From: Nitrospira sp.
Lineage (GTDB): Bacteria > Nitrospirota > Nitrospiria > Nitrospirales > Nitrospiraceae
Direction: 5' to 3'
Assembly: GCA_029194665.1 (NCBI GenBank)
Contig: JARFXO010000003.1
Location: 1-64,000 of the forward strand
DNA length: 64,000 nucleotides
Under the pieces are notes generated by a model that saw nothing but the letters and a program-made list of their open reading frames with translations, was not told the DNA's origin and ran no database searches. The position numbers and the translations under genes were made by a program. This document shows, piece by piece, positions 10,678-11,506 of the stretch (within the stretch, counting starts at the first letter, position 1; each line of letters opens with the position of its first letter).

Positions 10678-11031
10678 CTATTTCTTTGTATCCAGGATGC
10701 TGCCGAGTAAGGTATCTCCTGTTTGCAAGGTCTGGAGATTCGCTTGAAAGCTGCGTTGAGCCACGATTTTCTGCACCACTTCCTCGCCCAGATCCACATT
10801 CGAGAGCTCAACCATGGTTTGATTGCCGCCTGTGTCACGAAGAACGCTTGGACCGGATGAGTCGTCTTTCTCAACAACAGGGAGGACCCCACCGCTTGGG
10901 ATTTCGACGAACTCTGTTCTGGATTTTTTGAAGCCGTCGGTATTGACGTTGGCAACATTGTGGGCCACGACCTCAATCTGCTTGCCGAAGGCAGTCAGGG
11001 CCGAGAGAGCTGTATGGATGGCGGAAATCAT
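10678..11031 (-). CDS. Short flagellar basal-body rod-like protein
   Basis: A 117-residue protein with both halves of the FlgB/FlgC/FlgG family. The N-terminal rod motif is ALSALTAFGKQIEVVAHNVANVNTDGF, residues 8-34, where ANxxAN-type residues are visible. The C-terminal helix is VELSNVDLGEEVVQKIVAQR followed by SFQANLQTLQTGD. The middle domain of FlgC or FlgG is missing, so it is a minimal rod protein. No other flagellar gene is nearby. A c-di-GMP-I riboswitch lies about 90 bases upstream on the same strand, which suggests second-messenger control. It may serve an export or appendage role instead of a true rod. Confidence 0.8.
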   Translation of the reverse strand: MISAIHTALSALTAFGKQIEVVAHNVANVNTDGFKKSRTEFVEIPSGGVLPVVEKDDSSGPSVLRDTGGNQTMVELSNVDLGEEVVQKIVAQRSFQANLQTLQTGDTLLGSILDTKK

Positions 11032-11120
11032 GCGGCACCTCCATTCTGGTGAGGCTGGAATGTAGCGGAAAGCACCAGGGGAGCGGGAGGGAAACCTCGA
11101 TCGGTCAGGTCATCGGTTGT

Positions 11121-11210
11121 GTGGCAGCTAGGCTGACCCTGGAACATGTTCCGTCCCTGTTAAGGTCCCTTGGCTTTGCGTCCCACCCTCTCGGGTGGTT
11201 TGCCTTTTTC
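11121..11210 (-). promoter_or_regulatory. c-di-GMP-I (GEMM) riboswitch
   Basis: Read on the minus strand, the element starts with GGCAAACC (11197-11204), a short hairpin with a GAGA loop, then GGGACGCAAAGCC. This is the highly conserved GEMM-I core that binds cyclic di-GMP. A second stem follows, ending in CAGCCTAGCTGCC, which matches the tetraloop-receptor side of the aptamer. It lies in the leader of the flagellar rod-like gene, about 90 bases before its ATG. I saw no clear terminator between aptamer and gene, so the mode of control (transcription or translation) is open. Confidence 0.85.
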
Positions 11211-11506
11211 ACCCTGTCGAAAACTGTATCGGCCGTTTGACCTATGACTTGAGCATCTGATGTGGTTCAAGTGTAGGAGAGATCGATCTGCGGCAACTGC
11301 GGACGACCGCCACGAACCGGCAGAATCGAGCCTTTACGGTACAGTGGATGGTTCGCATATGACCACGAGTGGTGGCCGCGTTTGGTCGCCTGCGGCATGA
11401 CCTTGCCAAGTTCAGCAATTCAGAAAACACACCTAGGTACCGATAAGGTAGGGCTGATGGACCGAGTGCATTGTGTCGGTGGAGCAATAGTGATGCAGGT
11501 CAACGG

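Follow-up and report, generated by a model that had tools for sequence, protein, structure and literature searches.

The DNA analysed here, which we refer to as the window, comprises 64,000 nucleotides (positions 1-64,000 of contig JARFXO010000003.1) from the 4.8-Mb genome of Nitrospira sp. (GCA_029194665.1). An Rfam scan of the whole window returned three matches, two tRNAs and one c-di-GMP-I-GGC riboswitch aptamer (RF03167), the latter located on the sense strand within the 5' leader of a gene for a 117-amino-acid rod-like protein (Table 1). The end of the aptamer is separated by 87 nt from the ATG start codon, and a Shine-Dalgarno sequence (GGAGG) ends 6 nt upstream of this codon. Just 5' of the aptamer lies an exact match to the pattern of sigma-28 (FliA-type) promoters (TCAAGT-N14-CCGATA; 11252-11227, minus strand).

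Table 1. Features of the rod-like gene and its leader in the window, and the leader RNA found before homologous genes in Desulfobacterales.
Feature	Position	Strand	Basis
Predicted sigma-28 (FliA-type) promoter, TCAAGTCA-N11-GCCGATAC	11226..11252	-	Pattern match, conserved spacing
c-di-GMP-I-GGC riboswitch aptamer	11119..11213	-	RF03167, 70.0 bits; RF01051, 62.9 bits
GCCAAGGGA within the aptamer, 5' strand of the proposed anti-aptamer helix	11166..11174	-	Pairing in 13 relatives
TCCCCTGGT, 3' strand of the proposed anti-aptamer helix	11074..11082	-	Pairing in relatives
TGGTGCTTTC, proposed anti-Shine-Dalgarno strand	11068..11077	-	10/10 pairs kept in 13/13 sequences
GGAGGTGCCG, Shine-Dalgarno region	11033..11042	-	Direct reading; GGAGGTGC conserved in relatives
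Predicted minimal FlgC-like rod protein (117 aa), extra paralogue	10678..11031	-	PF00460, 38.6 bits; PF06429, 46.1 bits; AlphaFold2
Desulfobacterales leader RNA	L195:1501-1610	+	Also at L198, L200, L201, L204, L205, L207-L210 and others

The RF03167 match extends over the full model (positions 1-80) with a score of 70.0 bits (gathering cut-off 59; E 1.6e-14), and the parent family c-di-GMP-I (RF01051) detects the same element with 62.9 bits (cut-off 35) as its single match across the 4.8-Mb genome. A chance match is ruled out by these covariance scores. They also bear out the first-pass annotation of this DNA, which had placed a c-di-GMP-I riboswitch at 11121-11210 and had named a covariance search as a means to verify it: both models score above their cut-offs, the boundaries are correct to within 3 nt, and the GEMM core and tetraloop stem that it described are present as GGGACGCAAAGCC and CCACCC-GAGA-GGGTGG on the minus strand, a strand that it did not give. 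In our own alignment, AAGGCAAACC retains a G at the place of G20 and UGCC retains a C at the place of C92 of Vc2, which we take to be the residues in contact with the ligand. Binding of c-di-GMP by this aptamer is predicted from its match to the class-I covariance model.

Among the 146 genomes of the order that we sampled, 59 possess RF03167. In the genus to which the window belongs, the aptamer is positioned 83-105 nt upstream of the rod-like gene in 17/17 RF03167-positive genomes, and three genomes from a sister genus of the same family likewise carry it before this gene, with a gap of 83-105 nt. Within the sample of the window's genus, the aptamer is dedicated to the 117-aa rod-like gene. 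The gene itself forms a conserved, syntenic Nitrospira family, with a radical SAM gene on its 3' side and genes for a hybrid histidine kinase and a DsbA-like protein on its 5' side in most species. Across 61 sequences of this locus, 13 possess both the aptamer and the sigma-28 box, 12 the aptamer only, 27 the sigma-28 box only and nine neither of them; four natural states at one orthologous locus provide a ready comparative experiment on the gain and loss of an RNA switch. Nitrospira moscoviensis lacks the aptamer. As the state of the aptamer changed at least six times on the gene tree of these 61 sequences, the aptamer block appears and disappears among them while the rest of the locus is stable. 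RF03167 also precedes two homologous genes from Desulfobacterota (L084 and L104); these aptamers and those of Nitrospira may descend from a common ancestor or may have arisen independently.

Given this turnover and the absence of the aptamer from 36/61 relatives, one might regard it as a relic, or as a sensor for another dinucleotide, the more so since RF03167 is a variant family for which our literature search returned listings and no binding or function data. We consider this highly improbable: the aptamer core is nearly invariant in the relatives while the spacer drifts, the G preceding GCAAACC is retained, and the score of the parent c-di-GMP-I model is far above its cut-off. Two further interpretations of the element were rejected, namely antisense action on the divergent kinase gene, as the aptamer has the orientation of the rod gene and synteny persists where the aptamer is absent, and a plasmid-borne origin, as no plasmid match was found.

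The 117-aa protein contains both domains typical of rod proteins, Flg_bb_rod (PF00460) at residues 6-35 (38.6 bits; cut-off 20.7) and Flg_bbr_C (PF06429) at residues 71-114 (46.1 bits; cut-off 23). It passes the general hook-basal body subfamily model TIGR03506 (72.5 versus 70.25 bits) and falls below the cut-off of the FlgC equivalog TIGR01395 (40 versus 102.1 bits), as it does for every other listed equivalog. Full-length homologues mostly measure 110-118 aa, and nearly all of those from Nitrospira are 117 aa long. An AlphaFold2 model calculated from 50 full-length relatives is confident (pLDDT 87.9) and predicts four strands flanked by a long helix at either terminus; its best matches in the PDB are the proximal rod chains from Salmonella (7cg0; TM 0.84 by query, rmsd 2.4-2.8). 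In sequence-profile comparison, FlgC is the relative of similar size that matches almost from end to end. According to this modeling, the 117-aa protein is a complete, small rod protein with a FlgC-like fold, and the earlier view that the gene encodes only the two ends of a rod protein is contradicted by the whole predicted fold.

The same genome encodes FlgB, FlgC, FlgE, FlgF, FlgG and FlgK at C3:110-164 kb, the separate FlgC scoring 171.3 bits with TIGR01395; the genes for FlhA and FliA are located at C3:148-153 kb (FliA: TIGR02479, 256.3 bits; G000:C3:152607-153278), and flagellin is encoded at 188 kb. Since the host possesses its own FlgB, FlgC, FlgE, FlgF, FlgG and FlgK proteins, the 117-aa gene is an extra paralogue; a function as substitute for a missing FlgB or FlgC was rejected, as both are present. 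The nearest canonical rod gene lies about 100 kb away on the same contig. The first-pass annotation had described the gene as devoid of flagellar neighbors, and this is correct for the immediate surroundings, where none of the four genes scanned (radical SAM, hybrid histidine kinase, DsbA-like, patatin) is flagellar; it does not extend to the contig, which holds the full flagellar set at a distance of about 100-177 kb.

Late flagellar genes usually encode filament, motor and chemotaxis proteins, and not rod-like ones. The pattern TMAAGT-N14-CCGATA is found five times in the 4.8-Mb genome, compared with zero sites for the reversed control, and these five sites are positioned before the flagellin gene, before a PilZ-domain gene, before a gene for a GAF/PAS histidine kinase, within a gene, and before the aptamer. 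The PilZ-domain gene (L192:1501-1911), which lies directly 3' of its sigma-28 box, likely encodes a c-di-GMP receptor within the flagellar regulon. In relatives, the sigma-28 box and its spacing are conserved: 27 relatives without the aptamer have a box of this kind 5' of the gene (e.g., TAAAGTTC-N11-TCCGATAA), which mostly ends 42 nt upstream of the start codon. Several Desulfobacterota also have sigma-28 boxes 5' of the gene (e.g., L084 and L107), and in one member of the Desulfobacteraceae (L084) the homologous gene is preceded by a sigma-28 box together with an RF03167 aptamer and a hairpin resembling a terminator. From the match to a flagellin-type promoter, we predict that the 117-aa gene belongs to the sigma-28 regulon. 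With respect to its regulation, the gene is therefore not isolated, as had been assumed: it possesses a sigma-28 box of the flagellin type, and 67 of 70 genomes carrying it also encode flagellin.

A further conserved element, resembling TGCTACACT, is situated 5' of the sigma-28 box in the relatives, and TACACT (11270-11275, minus strand) is part of it in the window. It may constitute a second promoter of the sigma-70 type; a scan with promoter consensus sequences found no sigma-70-type promoter at this element.

The occurrence of the gene follows that of flagellin. Flagellin is encoded in 67/70 gene carriers and in 35/76 non-carriers among the 146 genomes (Fisher p 8e-12, a value uncorrected for phylogeny). 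In G046, a genome devoid of flagellin and FlhA, the gene has decayed, with an ATA start codon and a frameshift. Two other genomes without flagellin and FlhA, G032 and G011, retain an intact gene. The G032 genome (99% complete, about 10 contigs) has kept both the aptamer and the gene, contains no other match to the protein, and displays a dN/dS of 0.13-0.18 for this gene when compared with its nearest relative, L082. These two genomes speak for a non-flagellar role, in secretion or surface attachment, of what would merely be a descendant of a rod protein, a reading that we deem unlikely in view of the co-occurrence with flagellin, the sigma-28 control in two phyla and the decay of the gene in the flagellum-less G046; moreover, the constraint seen in G032 may predate the loss of its flagellum. 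A flagellar role, possibly besides a second one, is the better reading: because of the sigma-28 box, the co-occurrence with flagellin, the decay in G046 and the FlgC-like fold, we read the 117-aa gene as an accessory component within the flagellar regulon. Of the earlier proposals, direct c-di-GMP control of this gene accords with a sense-oriented, covariance-scored and dedicated (17/17) aptamer, provided that the notion of an isolated gene is dropped. As for the suggestion of a sessile-motile or secretion role, the promoter, flagellin co-occurrence, G046 and the fold point to a flagellar gene and not to one for secretion.

How might the aptamer be connected to the expression of the gene? No terminator-like site was detected on the minus strand between 10400 and 11500, and a transcription-terminator platform like that of the Clostridioides difficile riboswitch Cd1 was consequently rejected. 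Judged by pairing potential in the leader, the platform likely acts on translation. Across the 13 closest leaders, the strand GCC(A/G)AGGGA, which is part of the aptamer, has a potential partner further downstream (UCCC..GG). In the anti-aptamer helix that the two would form, 88.9% of the cells are paired, compared with at most 61% when the strands are slid against each other; covariation within this helix amounts to one compensatory change, and the shuffle control is weak (81/500). An anti-Shine-Dalgarno strand, YGGYRCYUUY, can pair with the ribosome site GGAGGUGCCG with 10/10 pairs in 13/13 sequences, compared with at most 70% when slid, and five positions of this helix vary, each time preserving the pair. 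In the window, the anti-Shine-Dalgarno and anti-aptamer strands share 4 nt, so that the two helices are mutually exclusive. The window's own anti-Shine-Dalgarno helix contains several G-U pairs, and the energies of the individual duplexes are often no better than those of shuffled sequences. In a third aptamer-bearing lineage (L178-L185), some members possess a good anti-Shine-Dalgarno strand, and no clear anti-aptamer strand was seen.

On these grounds, we regard it as rather probable that the leader RNA senses c-di-GMP and, upon binding, masks the start site of a sigma-28-driven accessory axial protein, thereby functioning as an OFF switch. Transcription would start at the sigma-28 promoter a few bases 5' of the aptamer, and since this promoter precedes the aptamer, the mRNA would be made only once FliA is active. 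At low c-di-GMP levels, GCC(A/G)AGGGA would pair with the downstream C-rich strand, thereby occupying part of the masking strand, and the gene would be translated. At high c-di-GMP levels, the aptamer would fold, and the C-rich strand would be freed to pair with GGAGGUGCCG; because the two helices share nucleotides, ligand binding should release the anti-Shine-Dalgarno strand and translation should stop. We infer the OFF polarity from the conserved, mutually exclusive pairing alone. A late flagellar part would thus appear only in cells that combine flagellar assembly with a low c-di-GMP level. Most likely, the 117-aa protein would be a substrate for export through the flagellar type III apparatus, and would add to, or modulate, the rod or hook base. 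This accessory motility part is probably made only when c-di-GMP, the signal to settle down, is scarce. Twelve aptamer-bearing relatives that have no sigma-28 box, and the retention of the gene in G032 and G011, speak against this model.

The opposite sign, c-di-GMP switching translation ON, for instance of a component that would brake or cap the flagellum as cells settle, appears to us somewhat unlikely. Single-sequence minimum-energy folds mask the ribosome site without any ligand in several relatives, as an ON switch would have it; these folds vary among the relatives and do not settle the choice between ON and OFF. Near-identical cyclic-dinucleotide aptamers are reported to serve as ON or OFF switches (PMC9262584), and expression of the C. 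difficile gene downstream of Cdi-1-1 increased with c-di-GMP (PMC6200980). However, formation of the aptamer should release the anti-Shine-Dalgarno strand, which shares nucleotides with the anti-aptamer strand, and expression by sigma-28 suits a gene of the motile state.

In Desulfobacterales, a different structured leader RNA of about 110 nt precedes the same rod-like gene, often immediately, at 10 or more loci, with the consensus GGCUUCUCGGAUGUGCGUGCAUCUUUU...ACCG...GAAUAACGGCAU..GGGAAGCC. A model of this RNA matches 49 of the 194 Desulfobacterales genomes sampled, with up to 10 copies per genome, and 12/297 genomes in a phylum-wide sample. In 61 matches (59 distinct), 24 of the 37 pairs change on both sides, and 270 covarying cells compare with 101 expected by shuffling and at most 79 when slid, in an alignment fitted to the model; the four founding leaders, aligned without the model, display five pairs with compensatory changes. 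No Rfam family matches this leader at E values up to 0.5. By eye, many copies follow TGGCA-type (sigma-54-like) or sigma-28-like sequences, some are succeeded by terminator-like hairpins, and others precede kinase-like, rubrerythrin-like or glycosidase-like genes. Two copies lie in tandem at L254 (194-302 and 384-493, plus strand), an arrangement known for riboswitches. We consider the Desulfobacterales leader a candidate for a new class of riboswitch or small RNA.

The c-di-GMP-I-GGC aptamer also occurs in other settings. In another family of the order to which the window belongs, it is found about 230 nt upstream of a second FliA/WhiG-type sigma factor gene (L171: aptamer at 1501-1595, open reading frame at 1691-2530; similar in G019 and G011), and c-di-GMP may there control an alternative sigma factor; G011, which has this arrangement, lacks flagellin and FlhA. 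Other such aptamers in the family of L171 lie near Flp-type pilin genes (L002, L020 and L026), and hence the c-di-GMP-I-GGC class looks tied to surface structures in these bacteria.

Usually, c-di-GMP affects flagella via protein receptors or through the shutdown of whole operons. In the Nitrospira genomes, by contrast, a single riboswitch each is set aside for one additional rod-like gene that already has the promoter logic of flagellin. The 117-aa protein is thus marked as a likely point at which Nitrospira controls the passage from swimming to settling. We found no paper in the literature that joins Nitrospira, flagella and this riboswitch. A broader reading, which we put forward tentatively and regard as possible though doubtful, is that an undescribed accessory rod-like protein of Nitrospirota and Desulfobacterota serves as a dedicated target for RNA-level control of motility; if true, Nitrospira and some Desulfobacterota would employ a c-di-GMP-I aptamer for this control, and the unrelated leader of Desulfobacterales would represent a new class of riboswitches that responds to a motility signal.

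Compared with known systems, the aptamer is full-length, above the gathering cut-off, sense-oriented and placed in a 5' leader, with no difference that would exclude it from c-di-GMP-I-GGC (RF03167; clan CL00126). The protein resembles FlgC in its predicted fold (TM 0.84 with the proximal rod of Salmonella), its size class and its possession of both rod domains; it differs from FlgC in its length (117 versus about 135-149 aa), its score (40 bits versus the 102.1 cut-off) and the presence of a separate FlgC in the genome. The promoter shares motif and spacing with FliA (sigma-28) late flagellar promoters, including that of flagellin, whereas the leader that follows it carries an aptamer and precedes a rod-like gene. 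In C. difficile, the class-I c-di-GMP riboswitch Cd1 (Cdi-1-3) lies before flgB as an OFF switch; it is transcribed from a sigma-A promoter, terminates transcription and governs the whole early flagellar operon (PMC6200980, PMC5386303). The Nitrospira leader likewise places a class-I aptamer before a flagellar rod-type gene, with OFF polarity proposed; unlike Cd1, it combines a sigma-28 promoter with a proposed translational platform and a single, unlinked, extra rod-like gene. Hence, a class-I c-di-GMP aptamer ahead of a flagellar rod gene has a precedent; the novelty here concerns its target, an extra rod-like protein, together with the sigma-28 promoter and a platform that likely acts on translation.
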